Source: a virus. From it: a stretch of DNA of 64,000 bases. The notes below the pieces were generated by a model. The model searched no databases, was not told where the DNA came from, and worked only from the letters and a program-made list of their open reading frames with translations. Below, in pieces: positions 847 through 63,028 of this stretch. The first letter of the stretch is position 1. The number at the start of each line of letters is the position of its first letter. The position numbers and the translations under genes were made by a program. The DNA is taken from positions 1-64,000 of the IMG/VR virus record IMGVR_UViG_3300005537_000002; one strand, 5' to 3'.

Positions 847-3657
847 GTGGCAGATACATTTACAGAATTTCAGCATCCGAACGATGCGACTTACCAGATC
901 AAACGTGACAAGATGGTAGGAGAGCTGCTAAAGATGAATCCAGTCCAGCTGGATCGTCAACTGCAGTACATGATGCGTCAGGCACCTCCTAAAGACGACA
1001 GTGGCATGACAAAGGAACTGCTACGCGAAATGCGTAACGCCCCCTTCGCACCAGACGCTGTCAAAGGTATCCTAGACTCAACGTCAGGAACTACAGGCAA
1101 CGTATTAATCCGGCAAGACCTGGAACCTACCCTCTATGCGCTGTTTGTGAAGGTGTTCCCTGCATTTGAGCGGCTCGCTAAGGGACCAGCTAATGGTCTC
1201 GTCCATGCGGCTGGAGCGTAAGCTGTTGGCCCTGCGAAGTAGGATACTGCTTCGTAAGCAAAGAGCGCTGTATCGGTGAAAGCGCAGCAGTGCGTAACGC
1301 CGAGGCAACCTGACCTTTGTCAGAGAGTCCGTAACGAACATACGCGCTCCCCGAAAGGGATGACATGTTCTGAACCCTAGCTATAACTAGTTCGAATGAA
1401 ACTAGGGAGACAAGCAGAAATGACTTGTCCGACGCTTCGGCGTAGGTAACAGACTGAATCAAATTACAACTCCCGACAGTAACTCTCTCGGTTCGACCAT
1501 CATTACTGAGCTTGGTACCGTCAGCTATACCGCCTCGACCTACGTAAGGGCTACGTTCCCGATCGCCGTCTTTGGCGTTGGTAGAGGCGTGAGTTTCAAG
1601 GAGATGGCCGCTGTAGCCCAGGGTGGAGCTCCGTTAGCAGCATAGCGGCTTCAGCAAGTGATTGCTGTCGAATAACTCTCTCTGATATCGGTGGAGGCCT
1701 TCACTTCTCTAGTCTTTAGAAGAAAGGTAATACCGAGGGAAGTCGGCTATGTAGTCGACGCCCGTAACGACTAAGCGAGAGAGCTCTAATGCATATGGTG
1801 TTCACTTGTTTTTATACCTCTTTATATACTATAATTAAAATAGTAGTTAATATAAAGGGGATAAGAACTGTGAGTAATGAGAGACCGTCAAAGGAACAGT
1901 TATATCAGATGTACGTCGTTGAAGGTTTGACACCGATACAAATAGCAAGAAAGTTTGGCTATACAGCATCGGAATCTATACGCTACTGGCTTAATAAGTA
2001 TAGTATCCCCAAACGTACTGTAACGCCGAATAACGCTGTGAGGTCGGTAGCAACTCGAGAGCAACTGTACCAGTGGCACGTAGTTGAAGGGCTTACCGCT
2101 GTAAAGATAGCGTCTGCGCTTGGGTGCAACCAAACAACGATTTCGGGTCTGATAAAAGAGTACGGACTAGATCCCGGACGAGCGCTTGTTAATCGTCCGA
2201 TAGAGTGTCCCGTAACTCGAGATGAGTTGTGGTATATGTATATAGTCGAAGGTATGGGCTTTACTTCTATAGGACAACTACTAGGAGTAGGAGATCAGGC
2301 AGTGGAGCGTTGGGTTAGAGCATTCGGTTTTGAGGTCCACTCTAACGGCAGATACACTCCACAAGTAAAGCGTACTCTAGAGGACTCAACTTATACGACG
2401 TACGGTTTTGACGATACTACGAAACTAGTTATACTATCTCGAGACAGTTGGGTGTGTCAGATGCCTAACTGTGACTGTTCCGAGAAATGGAAGCTTCAAG
2501 TACACCATATCCTACCACTGTACCGAGGAGGTACAAACGACTCTGAGAACGGTATTACTCTCTGCGAAGATTGCCATCGAGCCATTCGCGGAGTGGAAGA
2601 TGAGTGGGTCGAGTACTTTCTGAGTGTAGTGCAAGAGTATTAGATGATGCTATAGTCTGACCTTTACAGAAATGTAAAGAAGTAGGCAGAAATGACCTAC
2701 TCCGACCGAAAGGTCGAGTAACACACGTGATGACCCTCAGAAGACCGAATTAGCTAACGGAATGGTCAAACTGGCTACGGACCTGCAGTACACCATAATG
2801 CAGGGGAATGCGACTAATTCTTCCGGGACTGCGACTCAAGAAGCGGGTCTGTACAATGCGAACGCCTTCGATGGCTTCCGAGGTGTGCTAGGAAGTGTCG
2901 GTTCGTTCTCTGCAAACTCTGCGACACAGGCAGATATTAGCTCGCTGAACATACTCGAGAGTCTCCAGTTCGTTGCAGCGAAGCTAGCTAATGCCGGTGG
3001 TATGCCGAGTGCTGTCTACATGTCGATGAACTCCAAACAAGCTCTCGATACTGAGCAGCAGACCAACCAACGTTATAACAACGACTTCAACGAAATTATA
3101 CCCGGAGTCAAGGTTAACAGCGTACAGTGGGCGAACGGTCAATTAGCCATCATTCCTGTGCCTGGCAACATGATAGGGACGTACAACCGTACGAGCGACA
3201 ACGCTCTAGTCGAGGACATGTACATCTTGGACGAGAGTACCGCAACTTTACGCTGGCTATTCTCTCCAAACTTTACGGTCCTCCAAATTCCGTCGGGAGT
3301 AGACGGAATCCTCAGCGAACGCTACATCGTCTTTGCGATGGACATACACGTCGCCTTCCAGCGTAAGCTGGTCGACTAAACTTCTCTGACATCGGGGAAA
3401 CTCCCAACTGAGATAAGTGGACAATCCCGAGGCAAGCAAGTAGCAAACTACTGTGCAGCCGTAGAGACTGAGTGAGAAGCTCCGAGAGTTCGAACTCTCG
3501 GATGAAGCGACAGTCCGGACTCGCTAGGAATAGCGAGAAGGTAGCAGAAATGACTACCTCACGTAGGTAATGAGTTACCTACGGGGTAACATACCGGTGG
3601 GGCTTAGAATTAGCCGGGCCTATCTTCTGTGGCAAGGTCCGAAGATTGGCTAGCTAG
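847..3657 (+). CDS. Major capsid protein, interrupted by three group I introns
   Basis: Four open segments read as one 404-residue protein when three intron-like blocks are removed: exons 847-1212, 1457-1634, 2730-3339 and 3597-3657. The start is GTG with AAAGG upstream. Junctions were placed by requiring frame continuity, a U before each 5' splice site pairing with G in a nearby guide, and a G at each intron end. The guide pairs are GGCU/GGCC, CCGU/GCGG and GCGAU/GUCGC. The joined protein runs ..GPANGLVHAA-NQITTPDSNSL.., ..AQGGAP-YDPQKTELANG.. and ..YIVFAM-WGLELAGPIFCG.., and it ends at TAG 3655-3657. Size, position before the connector genes and texture fit an HK97-fold capsid protein; the family is inferred. 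Splice sites could be off by a few codons. Confidence 0.82.
1213..1456 (+). ncRNA. Group I intron I in the capsid gene (no ORF)
   Basis: 244-base block between two capsid exons. It shows the group I layout: a P1 formed by exon GGCU and intron GGCC, a P2-like hairpin (GAAG..CUUC), a core segment with GCCGAGGCAACC, a P7-like stretch GATGACATGTTCTGAAC, and a 3' tail AGAAATGACTTGTC followed by a hairpin, GTAACA and a final G. The tail is shared with the other three introns in the window. It has no encoded endonuclease. Confidence 0.8.
1806..1835 (+). promoter_or_regulatory. Promoter inside intron II for the endonuclease gene
   Basis: TTGTTT at 1806-1811, 18-base spacer, TATAAT at 1830-1835, about 35 bases before the GTG start of the HNH gene. 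A private promoter would allow expression apart from the capsid transcript. The base composition here is AT-rich compared with the capsid exons. Confidence 0.55.
1870..2643 (+). CDS. Intron-encoded HNH homing endonuclease with repeated HTH modules, 257 aa
   Basis: The GTG at 1870 is preferred over the upstream ATG at 1789 because AAAGGGG sits nine bases before it and the upstream extension is hydrophobic and AT-rich. The first 160 residues hold three repeats of about 50 residues, each beginning with a pattern like EQLYQMYVVEGLTPIQIARKFG, a helix-turn-helix unit. The C-terminal 75 residues form an HNH domain: VCQMPNCDC, LQVHHILPLYRGG, then NGITLCEDCHRAI, with zinc-binding Cys pairs and the catalytic HH. 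It should cleave an intronless capsid gene and so spread the intron. Two other proteins in the window (4707 and 8712) carry similar repeats without the nuclease. Confidence 0.88.
   Translation: MSNERPSKEQLYQMYVVEGLTPIQIARKFGYTASESIRYWLNKYSIPKRTVTPNNAVRSVATREQLYQWHVVEGLTAVKIASALGCNQTTISGLIKEYGLDPGRALVNRPIECPVTRDELWYMYIVEGMGFTSIGQLLGVGDQAVERWVRAFGFEVHSNGRYTPQVKRTLEDSTYTTYGFDDTTKLVILSRDSWVCQMPNCDCSEKWKLQVHHILPLYRGGTNDSENGITLCEDCHRAIRGVEDEWVEYFLSVVQEY
3340..3596 (+). ncRNA. Group I intron III in the capsid gene (no ORF)
   Basis: 257-base block. P1 pairs exon GCGAU with intron GUCGC; a CCAGC/GCTGG hairpin follows. The core reads ACTTCTCTGACATCGGGGA, GACAATCCCGAGGCAAGC and GCAGCCGTAGAGACTGAG, matching the P3-P7 style of T-even and SPO1-type phage introns. 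A CCGAGAGTTCGAACTCTCGG hairpin precedes GATGAAGCGACAGTCCG. The tail has AGAAATGACTACC, a hairpin, GTAACA and a terminal G. The capsid frame stays open for 13 codons into the intron before a TAA, which could mislead a simple ORF caller. Confidence 0.82.
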
Positions 3658-3710
3658 TCGAGGTAAAGGTTCGTGATGTGTGAGAGCTCGCGAATTCAAC
3701 CATGAGTTAT

Positions 3711-3748
3711 ACAAGGGGAGCATTCCGGAATGCTCCCCTTGTATTTTT
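3711..3748 (+). terminator. Terminator after the capsid gene
   Basis: Perfect 16-base inverted repeat (3711-3726 and 3727-3742) with stem core AAGGGGAGCATTCC, followed by ATTTTT. It closes the head operon 53 bases after the capsid stop. Confidence 0.85.
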
Positions 3749-5547: not shown

Positions 5548-5604
5548 TTGATTTACGTTACATAATACCTTATAATACTTAGGACAGTGAAGTCTCACTG
5601 TCCT
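5548..5604 (+). promoter_or_regulatory. Promoter followed by a 5' leader hairpin
   Basis: TTGATT at 5548-5553, 17-base spacer, TATAAT at 5571-5576. The expected start site falls at the foot of a perfect 10-base-pair hairpin (AGGACAGTGA, loop AGTC, TCACTGTCCT; 5581-5604). The mRNA of the next gene would thus begin with a stable stem, which may protect the 5' end. There is no U-run after it, so it is not a standard terminator. Confidence 0.6.
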
Positions 5605-5626
5605 AAAAATATCGTAGGTGGTCAGC

Positions 5627-29991: not shown

Positions 29992-31114
29992 TTGACTGAA
30001 TTGCATCTTGTCAATCGACCGGAGTACTGGAAACAGACATCCGTACGACCCAGAGGCTTCACCGAGTTCTGCGACATGATAGAAACCAACGGTCGCATTA
30101 CGGGCATTTGGGAGTTCAAACAGTACGACCCTAAAACGGGCGAAGTACGTAAGCGAGAGTGGAATACCAACGTCGTAACTGACCACGGTGCGGTCAACAT
30201 CCTCGCGAGTGCTATGGCTAGCGCTTCCAACTCTAGCCAATGGAATAACATTTACATCAACAACAACAGCGGTTCAACTACACTCACAACAGCTCTAACT
30301 AACGGCCAGACGGCTGTTACATCCCTTGCTGTAGCCGCTATACCGGCTGCCATTCCATTGGACTACCCGGCTCCAATCTCATCGACAGTAACACAGCTCA
30401 CTGTCGGGTATGGAACTGGTCAGACACAAACAGTCTCGATGAACGGTGCAGCTTCTCAAGCAGCGACATCACTCACAACAGTGTCTTACACCAGTAACGC
30501 TGCCTATGCGATTGGTACTAACGTCGTGCCACTACCAAACGTTGGCGAAAATCCATCGAACGCTAACCTGAAAGCCAACGCAACGTCTCCAGTTGAGACC
30601 TATAGCGGTAACCTTTCTTCAGGAGCATTCACGTACACCCCGACTACCGGTGCAGGTAACCGACTAGTCACGATCGCGTTCACGTTCGCAAACTCTACCA
30701 ACGGTGGCTCGACCTCTAACGGAACATACACCGATGCGTGGCTCGTTAACGTGACATCCGCCGCCGCGAACACTACAACGGGCAACTTCGTAGGCAACTA
30801 CGTGGCGCACGAGGTGAATACTCCGATGATCGTGAACAACAGCAACAACGTTAGAACAGTGACGCTTCAGTAGGTAACTGCTGTCGAATAACTTCTCTGG
30901 AAACGGTGAAGGTCCAGAACGGATAACGCCGTGGGAAGCATAGCAAAGACGCTAAGGCACCCGTAGAGACTAAGTGAGAAGCTCCTGTCAATGTCGACAG
31001 GATGATGCCATAGTCCGAACTGTATAGGAATATACAGAATGAGGCAGAAATGACCTCATCCGTACTGCAGTACGAGTAACATCAAAGGCTGTAAGTATTA
31101 CTATAAAGATTTAA
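29992..31114 (+). CDS. Tail fibre-associated protein split by a group I intron, 295 aa
   Basis: TTG start with AAAGGAG upstream. Exon 1 (29992-30852) codes for a helical start (RPEYWKQTSVRPRG, then IWEFKQYDPKTGEVRKREWN) and a Thr/Ala/Asn-rich beta domain. Exon 2 (31088-31114) adds only AVSITIKI before TAA, completing a final beta strand (..VNNSNNV-AVSITIKI). Without splicing the frame stops at TAG 30871. The N-terminal pattern VVTDHGAVNILASAMA is like that of phage proteins at the base of tail fibres. Splice sites follow the P1 pair CGUU/GACG and the terminal G rule. Confidence 0.68.
30853..31087 (+). ncRNA. Group I intron IV in the tail gene (no ORF)
   Basis: 235-base block. P1 pairs exon CGUU with intron GACG; then CAGT..ACTG hairpin, TAACTTCTCTGGAAACGG core, CACCCGTAGAGACTAAG, GATGATGCCATAGTCCGAAC (P7-like) and the common tail AGAAATGACCTCATCC, hairpin, GTAACA, final G. 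It is closely related to introns II and III of the capsid gene by the segments GTCGAATAACT and TCCGAAC. Confidence 0.82.
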
Positions 31115-37360: not shown

Positions 37361-37443
37361 TATAGTTAGTTTTTACCCGTACTAAAAATGAAGATATATA
37401 AATCATACAAGTCCTCCTATAGTACGGGTAAAAACTAACTATA
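37361..37443 (+). repeat. Long hairpin element, copy 1 of the TAGTTAGTTTTTAC family
   Basis: A 24-base arm (37361-37384) and its perfect complement (37420-37443) enclose 35 bases that include GATATATAAATCATAC. The arm contains TAGTTAGTTTTTACCCG. Copies with the same arm core and loop box occur at 47594-47679, and a reduced one at 51974-52011. All lie between co-directional genes. Confidence 0.8.
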
Positions 37444-45220: not shown

Positions 45221-45484
45221 CTGATATGTTTATATTATAAAGAATTACGTTACAAAAATCAAGGGTACTCAACCTACTTGATTTTCGGTCGCCTATACCA
45301 CTATACTTATACCATACAGTCGTCTAGCACAGCTACGTAGTCCCCTTCTCCTCGACCACTCAAAACCTATACTAACGAACCTTTAGTCAACCGAGCACCT
45401 ATAGCACTGATATAAAATCAATGCCCCCGCGTTCAACCGGATAAGCTCAGCCATTTTATATGGGCGGGTTTCGGAATTAGGGTC

Positions 45485-45545
45485 GATTTCTGGATTCACT
45501 TTAAAAATCATGTGTGATTTCTGGATTCACACATGATTTTTAAAG
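45485..45545. repeat. Origin-region module 1: direct repeat plus 19-base dyad
   Basis: GATTTCTGGATTCAC occurs at 45485-45499 and 45516-45530. A 19-base arm (45499-45517, CTTTAAAAATCATGTGTGA) is perfectly complementary to 45527-45545, with nine bases between. The order is unit, arm, unit, arm'. Confidence 0.85.
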
Positions 45546-45647
45546 TCGAGATCGATAGCTCTGTTATTTTTTTAGTACCCCCGCGATAAAATTATAAGAC
45601 TATATATATGGGGGGAGCTTAAAAAATTATCCGAGTTCTCGTAGCTC

Positions 45648-45715
45648 GTAAACAATCGCCAGGGTTTTACTTAAGAATCATAAACAATCGCGTGAGTTTA
45701 CTTATGATTCTTAAG
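45648..45715. repeat. Origin-region module 2: direct repeat plus 14-base dyad
   Basis: TAAACAATCGC followed by a GTTTTACTTA or GTTTACTTA end occurs at 45649-45673 and 45681-45703. A 14-base arm CTTAAGAATCATAA (45670-45683) is perfectly complementary to 45702-45715. It has the same unit-arm-unit-arm' order as module 1 but a different sequence. Confidence 0.85.
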
Positions 45716-45772
45716 CGCCCATATAGTATAGCTGAGCTTTGTCGATTTCGAGTTAGGTTCGGGCTATGCCTC

Positions 45773-45802
45773 TTGTAAAACGTGGGTAGAATTCATTATA
45801 AT
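45773..45802 (+). promoter_or_regulatory. Promoter for the helicase operon
   Basis: TTGTAA (45773-45778), 18-base spacer, TATAAT (45797-45802). Confidence 0.65.
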
Positions 45803-45835
45803 ATAAACAAGTAAATAACATCGTGAGGAGGTTCG

Positions 45836-47593: not shown

Positions 47594-47679
47594 GCTATAG
47601 TTAGTTTTTACGGTGTTTGCATCTTGGATATATAAATCATACATATACACGTGCAGTCCGTGTAAAAACTAACTATAGC
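47594..47679 (+). repeat. Long hairpin element, copy 2 of the TAGTTAGTTTTTAC family
   Basis: GCTATAGTTAGTTTTTACGG (47594-47613) pairs with 47658-47679 over 20 positions with a two-base bulge. The loop shares GATATATAAATCATAC (47627-47642) with copy 1, while the rest of the loop differs. It lies between co-directional genes. Confidence 0.75.
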
Positions 47680-55876: not shown

Positions 55877-56953
55877 ATGTTAGACACACGTATTAAGGAA
55901 ATGGTGGTTGCTTATAGCAACTTAATCGAGTCGTACGGAGGCCCAACCGAATTTGCAAAGCAGGGTGCGTACAGTACGCCGTATTGGGGGACTCAGCAGA
56001 TTACGAGCTATCCACAAGTTGTAACCCAACTTGTGGAGATAGCTCCACAGTACGTAGACTTGACTGCTGGTGGTGGTAGGTATCCGGTGCATCGAGCACA
56101 GCAAGGTCAGCGAGTCGCTTGTAACGACCGCTGTGTATATGCTGCAGTGTCGTTGGACGCAGTGCTGTGTAGTAAAACGACGCATACACTCGGATTCGAA
56201 GAGTGGCTAGAGGCATTCGCTCAAGCTACACATCCGATCTACGTAGCTTCTCGAAAGGGTTGGCTGCATAGACGTGCAGCGAAAGGTGATGTACTAGAAG
56301 GTTTCGAGGCAACAGCCTCGTACATCGACGGGTTGGTGAGTCAATTCGAGCGAGACTCGTTAGTGCTGGCTGCTGTAGGTGCAACTTTAGTTGAGGACTG
56401 TTCGCACAACGGGCTGAGTTGGTTGCAAGATGTCAGTTCCGTAACGACGGACGTGTTTTGGCGTAGTTTTGTACGTGAAGCTGTACGTATACGCTGTACT
56501 ATTGACAGTATGCCTATGCACGGGTATGTGCATCAGGTTACGAATATGGACGCACTCGAGTCACTCGACAACCTACATATCGAAGGAGGAGCTGTCTGCT
56601 ATATCGATCCGGCTTGGCCTTGGATGAGTACAGACGGAGCTAACCCGTATACGTTCTTCAGCACTCAAATATCAGCTGTGCTAGCGCAAAGTGATCTGCA
56701 AGTACCGTTCTGGAGTAGACATGAACCCGAAGCTGTGTACGCGGAGATTGGGACCTGGATCAACCGAGCGTTCGAGAAGGGTGCGGCCTACTTTATCGTA
56801 AGCACACAGGGTACGAACTCGCCTCCGCCAAACGATCTGTACGATTGGTTGGGTACAGAGTTTGATCTTACACACGTAGAGAACGTGGTGGCGAAGAGTT
56901 CCCGCACCGGTAAAGAATTCGTAGAGTGGTATGGTATAGTGAAAGCGTCGTAG
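55877..56953 (+). CDS. DNA adenine methyltransferase-like protein (D12-like), 358 aa
   Basis: ATG with CAAGGAG upstream. SAM-binding motif VDLTAGGGRYPVHRA (about 60-74) and catalytic-type motif CYIDPAWPW (about 240-248), in the order of D12-class N6-adenine methyltransferases. The canonical DPPY is replaced by DPAW. Residues 100-225 are a helical specificity-type insertion. It would methylate phage DNA or protect it from host enzymes. The changed motif leaves activity open. Confidence 0.65.
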   Translation: MLDTRIKEMVVAYSNLIESYGGPTEFAKQGAYSTPYWGTQQITSYPQVVTQLVEIAPQYVDLTAGGGRYPVHRAQQGQRVACNDRCVYAAVSLDAVLCSKTTHTLGFEEWLEAFAQATHPIYVASRKGWLHRRAAKGDVLEGFEATASYIDGLVSQFERDSLVLAAVGATLVEDCSHNGLSWLQDVSSVTTDVFWRSFVREAVRIRCTIDSMPMHGYVHQVTNMDALESLDNLHIEGGAVCYIDPAWPWMSTDGANPYTFFSTQISAVLAQSDLQVPFWSRHEPEAVYAEIGTWINRAFEKGAAYFIVSTQGTNSPPPNDLYDWLGTEFDLTHVENVVAKSSRTGKEFVEWYGIVKAS

Positions 56954-57030
56954 CCTAATACCATATCTACGTTATACTGCAGAGCTGGAGCTCTGCAGTA
57001 TTGATTTGTATACATATATAACATATACTA

Positions 57031-57103
57031 AAGTATAGAGCGGTTCGGAGTGTTGGCTCCGATGAGTTCTCACCCAACTCATACAGCGGACCGCTCTATA
57101 CTT
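57031..57103 (+). ncRNA. Structured RNA with three-way junction between genes
   Basis: Outer stem of 14 perfect pairs (AAGTATAGAGCGGT at 57031-57044 with 57090-57103) encloses hairpin TCGGAG-TGTTGG-CTCCGA, hairpin TGAGTT-CTCACCC-AACTCA and an unpaired TACAGCGG before the closing strand. Loop bases GTTGG could also pair with CCAAC in the second hairpin. It lies in the 228-base gap 56954-57181, 78 bases before the next start. The rest of that gap is AT-rich, with a possible weak promoter TATAAT at 57137-57142. Confidence 0.65.
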
Positions 57104-57181
57104 AGGGGACACTCTTAAAAGTCACTGGCAGTACATTATAATTATTCATACTTATACTGTATACAGTGCTAGGAACTGTCA

Positions 57182-58246
57182 GTGCCTGTTCGTACTATTT
57201 CTGCTTCACAACTGCAAGAGTTCTCTACTTGCAGACGACGCTGGGGCTATAGTGCCCTAGAACATTTGGATAGCCGGAGACAGTCGTATGCTTTATGGTT
57301 CGGCATCGGGGTACACCACGCACTAGATCGATTTTATTCCTTAGGCTTCGACCCTTCTGTAAGCTTTGATACGTGGTGGTCTACTGAGACTACCAAGCAA
57401 CAGGCAGGTCAACGTTCGCTGTTGGGTGAACGGGATATTGAACAGAAGTGGCTTGAGTTACGTCAGTTAGGTATAGGCATGCTATCACACTATCGGGAAT
57501 GGGCTCGTCTGCAGGACGACTTCGAGGTACTAGCAACAGAGGCGGACTTTCGGGTACCCATTCCCGAAACCGAAGGTCACTTAGTTGGCAGGTTCGACGG
57601 CATTATACGACTATGGCGCAGACCAAACGACGTGTATTTACTCGAACACAAGAGCTACAGTATCAAACCCCCACAATACTTCCTGCTACTCGACGAACAG
57701 ACTAACGTGTATCAGTGGGCAGCTACAAAACTACTTGCAAGTGGAGATTTAGCACAGTACGGTGTACCTGAAACCGCCACTGTTAAGGGTGTGTTGTATA
57801 ACGGGTTGAGGAAAGCCGTTCCAACTACTCCCCCGCTTGCTGACGACGGTAAGAGTTTACTAAGGGACGCGCGTATTGCTACAACGTATGAGTTGTATTT
57901 AGCTTCTATACGGGAGCACGACTTTTCGCCGAGTGACTATGCTGATGTGCTAGTGAAGTTGAAACTACGTGGTAACCGCTATTTCTATCGAGAGTGGATA
58001 CAAAGGTCAGCAGAGGAGCTGACTAGACTAGAGCGGAGACTGACCTCGCAATTTAGGGCCATGTCTAACCCGGAAGTTGCCCTACTTCCGTCGCCTACGT
58101 GGGATTGCTACTGGCGGTGTCCGTACTTCTCGTTGTGTGTCGCTGAAAACACTGGGAAGGATTATGACGAGATCAAAAGGACGCAGTACGCTCCTAGGGT
58201 ATGGTCTAGAGAGAAAACACCGTCAACGACTGACGATTTCCTGTAG
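57182..58246 (+). CDS. Cas4/RecB-like PD-(D/E)XK nuclease A, 354 aa
   Basis: GTG with TAGGAAC upstream. N-terminal SASQLQEFSTCRRRW places Cys17; HHALDRFY is the conserved His helix; the nuclease core is RFDGIIRLW (Asp) and YLLEHKSYS (E-x-K); the end has WDCYWRCPYFSLC with three Cys. The Cys pattern is that of Fe-S nucleases such as Cas4 and AddB. The partner gene follows 95 bases on. A recombination role in DNA-end processing is likely. Confidence 0.8.
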   Translation: MPVRTISASQLQEFSTCRRRWGYSALEHLDSRRQSYALWFGIGVHHALDRFYSLGFDPSVSFDTWWSTETTKQQAGQRSLLGERDIEQKWLELRQLGIGMLSHYREWARLQDDFEVLATEADFRVPIPETEGHLVGRFDGIIRLWRRPNDVYLLEHKSYSIKPPQYFLLLDEQTNVYQWAATKLLASGDLAQYGVPETATVKGVLYNGLRKAVPTTPPLADDGKSLLRDARIATTYELYLASIREHDFSPSDYADVLVKLKLRGNRYFYREWIQRSAEELTRLERRLTSQFRAMSNPEVALLPSPTWDCYWRCPYFSLCVAENTGKDYDEIKRTQYAPRVWSREKTPSTTDDFL

Positions 58247-60994: not shown

Positions 60995-61405
60995 ATGGAA
61001 CAGGCATTAATTCGAAAGGCCTTCAAGTTTGAGTCTGCACATCAATTACCACATCATAGAGGTCAGTGTGCTAGACTCCATGGACATTCTTACCGGTTAG
61101 AGGTTTTTGTGTACGGTCCGATACAAGAAGTAGTCGAAGACGCACCTGACAGTAGTGAGGGCATGGTAATGGACTTTGGTGATATAAGTGCGGTAGTAAA
61201 GGAACACATTATTACTAGACTCGACCACTACAATCTGAATGACGTGGTTCCCGTTCCAGTAACGACTGCAGAGTTAGTCGCTTGCTGGATTCGAGATACA
61301 TTGCTCCCCTACGTGCCAAATTTGTTTGCCATACGTCTTTGGGAGACCGAAGACGGCTACGCTGAAGTGTACGTAGGCGGAGCAAACTTCAAGTTGTTGC
61401 CGTAG
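60995..61405 (+). CDS. queD: QueD, 6-carboxytetrahydropterin synthase, 136 aa
   Basis: ATG with GAAAGGAAG upstream. Zinc ligands His16, His29 and His31 (FESAHQLPHHRG, CARLHGHSY), catalytic Cys25, LDHYNLND, and the C-terminal RLWETEDGYAEV with the substrate Glu. Length is standard. It turns dihydroneopterin triphosphate (from FolE) into 6-carboxytetrahydropterin, the QueE substrate. First of a run with queE and folE. Confidence 0.9.
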   Translation: MEQALIRKAFKFESAHQLPHHRGQCARLHGHSYRLEVFVYGPIQEVVEDAPDSSEGMVMDFGDISAVVKEHIITRLDHYNLNDVVPVPVTTAELVACWIRDTLLPYVPNLFAIRLWETEDGYAEVYVGGANFKLLP

Positions 61406-61454
61406 TGCGTAACGTATAGAGAAAGGCGCCTAACATGTTGAAGGAGGAAAACCT

Positions 61455-62234
61455 TTGAGTATTGACACTCAGACAGTCTCCGAAGTTGAACCAAACGTCG
61501 TTGAACGGAAGTTTACTGTCAGTGAGATTTATGGAGACGTAGTTCAGGGGGAAGGAACTATGACTTACGTACGCACCCATTTCTTACGGATGGGTGGCTG
61601 CGACTACCAACATTGCAGTTGGTGTGATAGTTTGTACGCAGTTCTCCCAGAAGAGGTACGTAAGTTGGAACGGTTATCCGCAAAGGAGATCGTTACAAGA
61701 ATACTTAGTCTACCTAGAGCTCCATACGTTACCATTAGTGGGGGTAATCCGGTAATGCACAAACTAGATGACGTAGTTGATGCATTGCACGCTGCAAATT
61801 ATTGTGTGGCAGTCGAGACTCAGGGAACGCTTTGGAAAGACTGGGTAGGACAGTGCGAGTGTATCACTTGCTCTCCTAAACCACCTAGCTCAGGTATGAC
61901 GACCAATTGGTCGTTACTGGACAATTTCATCGCCAAGTCAAGACTTGCCAACACACAACTGTGCTTAAAGGTAGTCGTCTTCACTGATGATGACTACGAG
62001 TACGCACGGACGGTGTACCATAGATACAGATGCGATGATGGGAGTACACCATTCTACCTACAAACTGGTACGATACTGCCAACTACAGAGAATCCGAATG
62101 GGGATACAGTTTATACTCTAACCCAACGATATAGAGAGTTGACCGAACGAGTACTAGCGGACGGTGACATGCAGTATGCTAGACCTAGTTGTCAACAGCA
62201 TGTACTGATGTACGGCCACAAGAGAGGAATCTGA
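61455..62234 (+). CDS. queE: QueE, 7-carboxy-7-deazaguanine synthase, 259 aa
   Basis: TTG start with AAGGAGGAAAA upstream. VSEIYGDVVQGEGTMTYVR, the radical-SAM cysteines Cys49, Cys54 and Cys57 (GGCDYQHCSWCDS), TISGGNPVMH, ETQGTLWKDW and SPKPPSSGM are QueE hallmarks. The cysteine spacing C-x4-C-x2-C is one residue longer than the usual C-x3-C-x2-C. It forms CDG from 6-carboxytetrahydropterin. The next gene starts three bases after its stop. Confidence 0.9.
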   Translation: MSIDTQTVSEVEPNVVERKFTVSEIYGDVVQGEGTMTYVRTHFLRMGGCDYQHCSWCDSLYAVLPEEVRKLERLSAKEIVTRILSLPRAPYVTISGGNPVMHKLDDVVDALHAANYCVAVETQGTLWKDWVGQCECITCSPKPPSSGMTTNWSLLDNFIAKSRLANTQLCLKVVVFTDDDYEYARTVYHRYRCDDGSTPFYLQTGTILPTTENPNGDTVYTLTQRYRELTERVLADGDMQYARPSCQQHVLMYGHKRGI

Positions 62235-62236
62235 CA

Positions 62237-63028
62237 TTGACAACGCAGCGTATGCCGTTCAACTTAAGTGCGGAACTTGTTGCCGGTCTTCGTAAGCAAT
62301 CCGTACGAGCTTGTCTGCAGTGTGGCGTAACGGAAGCCCAGTCGTTGGAGTTAACGGGTAGAGGTTTGCAGACACATAGGGTTAAGAGTGGGGAAGTGAC
62401 AGAGGACATTGTAATGTGCCACGACTGTCACTTCCGCCAGCATAATGACCCGGAAGTGGACCGAGCACGATATCAAACTGTGCTAGCTTCTACTCGTAAT
62501 TGGCTGGAATCCTTAGGGGTAGACCTAACACACGGCGACTTCAGAGAAACTGCTAGGAGAGTGGCTACATACTACTTAGGACACTTTAAGTCTCCGGATT
62601 CTGTTGAGTACGAGTTAGAACAACTACGACAGGCGAAGTTCTCGACAGGATATAGTGGTATGGTAGCTGTATCCGGCATTCAAGCGGACGGTCTCTGTCC
62701 TCACCATCTGCTACCTGTACGATATACTATTAAAGTAGGGTATCTCCCCTACGAAGGTAGAGCAATCGGCCTGTCTAAGCTGCCGAGGGTAGTTGAGTTA
62801 TGTGCCAGCATACCTCGATTACAAGAAGATATCACGATGTGGATAGCGGAAGAGGTTTCGCTAGCTGCAGAAACTCCTCACGTAGCTGTGCAAATTGTGG
62901 GGAAGCACAGTTGTATGGAGATTAGGGGCGTCCGTCAACGTAAGTCGGATACTACAACTACAGTGCTTCTAGGTCACTTCCTAGAAGAAACTAATTCTCA
63001 CCGCGAATTCCTAGCGCTCACCGACTAG
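62237..63028 (+). CDS. folE: HNH-like zinc domain fused to GTP cyclohydrolase I (FolE), 263 aa
   Basis: TTG at 62237 with GAGAGGAA upstream; the longer frame lies in queE. Residues 20-70 hold a zinc/HNH-like fold: Cys26-xx-Cys29, THRVKSG (His47), MCHDCHFRQH (Cys61, Cys64, His65, His69). Residues about 75-263 are GTP cyclohydrolase I: VSGIQADGLCPHHLLPV, AIGLSKLPRVVELCA and VGKHSCMEIRGVRQRKS, with zinc ligands Cys and His in CPHH and HSC. It makes dihydroneopterin triphosphate from GTP for QueD. The fused domain is not part of ordinary FolE. Confidence 0.85.
   Translation: MTTQRMPFNLSAELVAGLRKQSVRACLQCGVTEAQSLELTGRGLQTHRVKSGEVTEDIVMCHDCHFRQHNDPEVDRARYQTVLASTRNWLESLGVDLTHGDFRETARRVATYYLGHFKSPDSVEYELEQLRQAKFSTGYSGMVAVSGIQADGLCPHHLLPVRYTIKVGYLPYEGRAIGLSKLPRVVELCASIPRLQEDITMWIAEEVSLAAETPHVAVQIVGKHSCMEIRGVRQRKSDTTTTVLLGHFLEETNSHREFLALTD

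Follow-up and report, generated by a model that had tools for sequence, protein, structure and literature searches.

A very stable branched fold ahead of a nuclease gene in a hairpin-rich tailed phage, possibly the 5' end of the nuclease message

What is the role of a 73-nucleotide branched structure that sits between two genes of an uncultivated virus? The structure lies in IMG/VR record IMGVR_UViG_3300005537_000002, which is 177,637 bases long; the window analysed here is the stretch of its first 64,000 nucleotides. The record is that of a tailed phage, whose genes include a family A polymerase, a pair of paralogous PD-(D/E)XK nucleases, an AAA protein, DUF669 and PTPS/GTP-cyclohydrolase. 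The genes around the element serve replication/recombination, and all its neighbours are on the plus strand. The element itself occupies a gap of 228 bases between a 358-aa gene upstream and the first nuclease (57182-58246) downstream, in which there follow one another a hairpin (56974-57001), a promoter-like TTGATT-17-TATACT, the element, a second promoter-like site (TTAAAA-16-TATAAT) and a weak stem that may cover the GTG start codon (Table 1).

Table 1. Coordinates of the element, its surroundings and other features of the phage discussed in the text
Feature	Position	Strand	Remarks
Three-way-junction element, 73 nt	57031-57103	+	sequence, RNAfold, z -7.4
P1, closing stem, 14 perfect Watson-Crick pairs	57031-57044/57090-57103	+	
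P2 hairpin, 6 pairs	57045-57050/57057-57062	+	
P3 hairpin, 6 pairs	57063-57068/57076-57081	+	
Unpaired TACAGCGG, 8 bases	57082-57089	+	
Upstream gene, 358 aa	55877-56953	+	without Pfam match or phage homologue
12-bp perfect hairpin	56974-57001	+	weak U tract (TGATTTGT)
Candidate promoter TTGATT-17-TATACT	57001-57029	+	predicted start ~57035-57038, within first P1 pairs
Alternative promoter-like site TTAAAA-16-TATAAT	57115-57142	+	39 bases ahead of nuclease start
Possible stem CACTGGCAGT / ACTGTCAGTG	57124-57184	+	pairs GTG start codon; weak, z -1.8
PD-(D/E)XK nuclease (PF12705), Cas4/RecB-like, 354 aa	57182-58246	+	GTG start, AGGA upstream
Second PD-(D/E)XK nuclease, paralogue of first, 388 aa	58326-59492	+	
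Stable stem directly behind a -10, similar arrangement	5571-5576 (-10) / 5579-5606 (stem)		
TAGTTAGTTTTTAC / GTAAAAACTAACTA repeat copies	37361-37443, 47594-47679 (window); 147679-147758, 158497-158575 (rest of record)		
TAGTTAGTTTTTAC / GTAAAAACTAACTA repeat, single arms	51974 and 92401		
Group I intron regions	about 1463-2761, 3318-3554, 30843-31081		

The element reads AAGTATAGAGCGGT, TCGGAG TGTTGG CTCCGA, TGAGTT CTCACCC AACTCA, TACAGCGG and ACCGCTCTATACTT, and both the sequence and RNAfold bear out the architecture described in the initial annotation, a 14-pair closing stem with two six-pair hairpins and an unpaired TACAGCGG. The two hairpins abut, with 0 bases between them. RNAfold returns the same junction in a slightly moved register (two more pairs in P1, five in P2, seven in P3) at a minimum free energy of -36.8 kcal/mol, which none of 200 shuffles equalled, and the element ranks third in stability among 73-nt windows sampled every 3 bases across the 64 kb. 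Almost all of this significance comes from the closing stem: shuffling the 45 bases inside a fixed P1 gave sequences that fold at least equally well in 136 of 2000 cases, and 52 of 2000 shuffles are as good as the interior taken alone. Because the interior is only marginally unusual once P1 is fixed, "three-way junction" is a less secure description than "long inverted repeat".

Long inverted repeats must fold on either strand, and the minus strand of the element folds nearly as well (z -5.9), so folding leaves the strand undecided. One could accordingly imagine a small antisense RNA that starts at the TATACA-17-TATAAT promoter-like site at 57163-57135 on the minus strand, crosses the element leftwards and extends as far as the hairpin at 57001-56974. 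I consider this very improbable, given that the neighbouring genes are all on the plus strand and that the minus strand has no U-tract terminator.

Nor is the element isolated, as it was first described. Besides the 12-bp hairpin close by at 56974-57001, there are 19 perfect inverted repeats with arms of at least 12 bases in the 64-kb window, compared with 0-2 in 20 block-shuffled controls. Many of the long inverted repeats of this phage are intergenic, and some are followed by U tracts (3709-3744, 82035-82072). The element is one of this large hairpin population, distinguished by its branched interior. Its fold is genuine, very stable and a singleton, and it is of an ordinary kind for a hairpin-rich phage. 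In such a phage one striking fold says little in favour of a special RNA class.

An inverted repeat that is equal on both strands may also work as DNA, bound by a phage regulator or forming a cruciform, in which case the RNA fold would be incidental. The phage does possess a family of repeats with TAGTTAGTTTTTAC arms at near-fixed spacing that resembles a DNA or promoter element. However, the record contains the arms of the element a single time, they bear no relation to that family, and 14-bp arms set 45 bases apart would be unusual for an operator, all of which makes this explanation improbable.

The repeat family deserves mention in its own right, as it is odder than the element at 57031-57103. 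Its inverted arms TAGTTAGTTTTTAC / GTAAAAACTAACTA are spaced a near-constant 64-66 bases apart in one orientation throughout, and they enclose an AT-rich motif, ATATATAAATCATAC in three copies and a variant in one; it is possibly a phage-specific promoter/operator or replication element. A 615-base noncoding gap at 45221-45835 separates divergent gene blocks and contains divergent promoters, a pair of long hairpins with arms of 20 bp and 14 bp, and the direct repeats GATTTCTGGATTCAC and AAACAATCGC; it is a possible replication origin or regulatory hub. Group I introns are present in the window too: the Rfam model RF00028 scores 51.5 bits at 30843-31037 and 44.7 bits at 3318-3537, and matches weakly at 2554-2679. 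These introns seem to split capsid-/tail-region genes, and one of them adjoins an HNH endonuclease gene (1789-2643).

Does the element belong to a known or recurrent RNA family? The Rfam search proposed in the initial annotation was run, and no family matched the element, either at gathering score over the whole window (a scan that failed to pick up the group I introns) or in a local scan of 56950-57190 at E ≤ 10, which yielded no riboswitch and only weak, irrelevant matches, to the neighbouring hairpin. A tRNA search found none, and blastn against INPHARED found no similar DNA. The sole other copy in IMG/VR is on IMGVR_UViG_3300027857_000021, the same virus, with 100% identity across the 12.8 kb that were compared, and the core pattern CGATGAG...CTCATACAGCGG likewise recovered the same virus only. 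With a covariance model built from the single sequence I found one copy and no second in the phage's own 177.6-kb record, the weak matches in the window being other simple hairpins, and no second copy at loci with related nucleases or polymerases, for which related records and 20 loci were covered. Protein-guided searches (nuclease, PolA, upstream gene, nuclease alignment) led to the same virus or to distant homologues without synteny. Thus the collections searched yielded an identical copy and no divergent homologue.

These searches weigh upon the idea that the element is a specific functional RNA of an undescribed class (a riboswitch, ribozyme, protein-binding leader or sRNA), whose active part would be the junction together with the TACAGCGG strand. 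The junction geometry is what such an RNA might look like, in that its two hairpins directly adjoin each other and 8 nt stay single-stranded; the interior taken alone is slightly better than its shuffles; and a 5-base complementarity, GUUGG/CCAAC, links 57052-57056 in the P2 loop with 57074-57078 in the P3 loop and the adjoining P3 bases, so that a loop-loop contact is possible. That contact, however, would open the upper P3 pairs, and there is no Rfam match to the element; no further copy came up in the 177.6-kb record, among IMG/VR sequences other than the same virus (by core pattern) or near related genes. A 14-bp P1 at a pairing probability of about 1 also leaves nothing to switch. I regard a specific RNA of this sort as improbable, and its most elaborate form, an undescribed phage class in which junction, 8-nt strand and loop-loop contact together make a regulatory or nuclease-resistant leader for the Cas4/RecB-like nuclease operon, as more doubtful still.

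The predicted pairing also bears on how the element could act. In every context folded, pairing in P3 and in the inner part of P1 has a probability near 1, and no helix competes with P1 in the minimum free energy folds; the P1 probability suggests, in these models, a static rather than a switching fold. This argues against a ligand switch, which appears unlikely, and for a passive leader that protects an end or for a boundary. A riboswitch, including the preQ0 type that had been suggested, is not supported, given the locked P1, the lack of a competing expression-platform helix and the absence of Rfam riboswitch matches. The remark that hammerhead core bases are missing was correct: there is no CUGANGA...GAAA on the plus strand and no Rfam match to this or another known ribozyme. 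A small in-frame ORF can be read in the sequence, starting inside the element at GTG 57050 or ATG 57062 and ending at TAA 57118 (18-22 codons), and no evidence of its use was found.

The candidate promoter TTGATT-17-TATACT ends 1 base ahead of the element (last base of the -10, 57029), and the first base of its -35 is the last base of the hairpin at 56974-57001, which likely terminates or bounds the upstream gene. Apart from its -10, TATACT, the site fits the recurrent promoter pattern of the phage (TTGATT/TTGTAA/TTGTTT, 17-18 bases, TATAAT), of which there are 39 intergenic examples in 124 kb; the survey of hairpins and promoters covered 124 of the 177.6 kb, in three stretches of the record. 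Promoter-like matches in the region are not in excess (8, versus 8.4 in shuffles). A start at about 57035 would drop the first 4 pairs of P1, and the fold from this position still reaches -31.0 kcal/mol (z -5.5).

At this point the explanation that I tentatively prefer, at somewhat less than an even chance, is that the element forms the leader structure at the 5' terminus of the mRNA for the nuclease. Transcription would start from TTGATT-17-TATACT, giving an RNA whose 5' end, near 57035, falls within P1 and is locked at once into a branched fold, in which a stem of about 10 pairs carries two hairpins. The structure would most likely act passively, shielding the 5' end against end-dependent ribonucleases and separating the leader from the upstream transcript; the message of the nuclease would thereby last long or be dosed separately. 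Stem-loops at the 5' terminus are known to stabilise bacterial mRNA (Emory et al. 1992, as cited in PMC7509114). Of what the initial annotation proposed, a structured and compact RNA ahead of the nuclease is what fits the sequence and the plausible promoter just 5' of it. Its more specific suggestions are not supported: besides the riboswitch, no evidence was found for a packaging RNA like the phi29 pRNA (there is no Rfam match, and the neighbours are replication/recombination genes) or for a regulatory sRNA.

A similar arrangement, with a stem directly behind the -10, occurs near 5571, and at 152895-152975 of the record (10895-10975 of L045) a structured leader lies directly behind TTGACA-17-TATACT. 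There the long stem that closes the structure, CCTTGTGTAGGGTG / CACCCACAAAGG, reaches over the ribosome-binding site and encloses an inner hairpin; for translational control, that leader is a stronger candidate than the element at 57031-57103. The arms differ in sequence among the three sites (57031, 5579 and 152895), which fits a role for structure and not for a common protein-binding sequence. Nonetheless, the first 75 bases behind 36 promoters have a mean z of -0.90 versus -0.80 at random noncoding positions of the phage, and z falls below -3 in 11% of these leaders versus 12% of the random positions. Structure at the 5' terminus is thus not supported as a general trait of the promoters of this phage, and the coupling at 57031 may be coincidence; stems behind single promoters are facts about single sites and make no rule.

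The strongest competitor of a 5'-terminal leader is a transcript boundary, in which read-through out of the upstream gene would stop, pause or be cut (in the manner of RNase III) at the element together with the hairpin at 56974-57001, while transcription of the nuclease would begin from the site at 57115-57142. If that site is the real promoter, the element lies outside the nuclease mRNA. The massive enrichment of long perfect hairpins in the phage, many of them intergenic and some with U tracts, suits a boundary, and TTAAAA-16-TATAAT lies 39 bases 5' of the nuclease, a placing that resembles that of the promoters of related nucleases. The closest of these, from Weizmannia phage Youna2, Bacillus phage BSTP5 and the IMG/VR locus L030 (about 33-36% identity), have a TTGAxx-17/18-TATAAT promoter immediately 5' of the gene and lack the branched structure; in Youna2 and BSTP5 the promoter sits behind a terminator-like hairpin. 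Promoter position in these relatives favours the 57115-57142 site and keeps a boundary alive. Yet the -35 and the 16-nt spacer of that site depart from the usual pattern of the phage, and a second, branched structure would be superfluous 30 bases past a hairpin. Furthermore, the element alone is not an intrinsic terminator, since AGGGGACACTC and not a U tract follows the stem on its 3' side, and it is not among the terminator-like sites. Taken together, a boundary seems possible but rather unlikely. If the element is instead a functional leader, it would show an uncultivated phage using a passive RNA fold to set how much of a potentially self-damaging nuclease message there is, or how long it lasts.

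How does the element compare with known systems? It shares three helices about a junction with the hammerhead ribozyme, but has neither its core bases nor a match to its Rfam model. Its likeness to preQ1 riboswitches is one of neighbourhood, as PTPS, QueE-like and FolE genes are found about 4-6 kb downstream; the element matches no Rfam model and adjoins nuclease rather than queuosine genes. The preQ1 classes are pseudoknots, whereas the element is a three-way junction closed by 14 bp. The genes in question (60995-63028), for a PTPS (QueD-like), a QueE-like protein (by reading only) and a GTP cyclohydrolase I (FolE), form a probable preQ0 / deazaguanine DNA modification pathway. With the intergenic hairpins, RNase III sites and terminators of tailed phages the element shares a long perfect stem between genes, one of many here, although it encloses more (45 nt, with two inner hairpins) and has no U tract. 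Finally, whereas leaders of the ompA type are simple stems, the element is branched and its start site is a predicted one; like them, it would put a stable fold at, or very close to, the 5' end predicted for a message, ahead of a separate ribosome-binding site.
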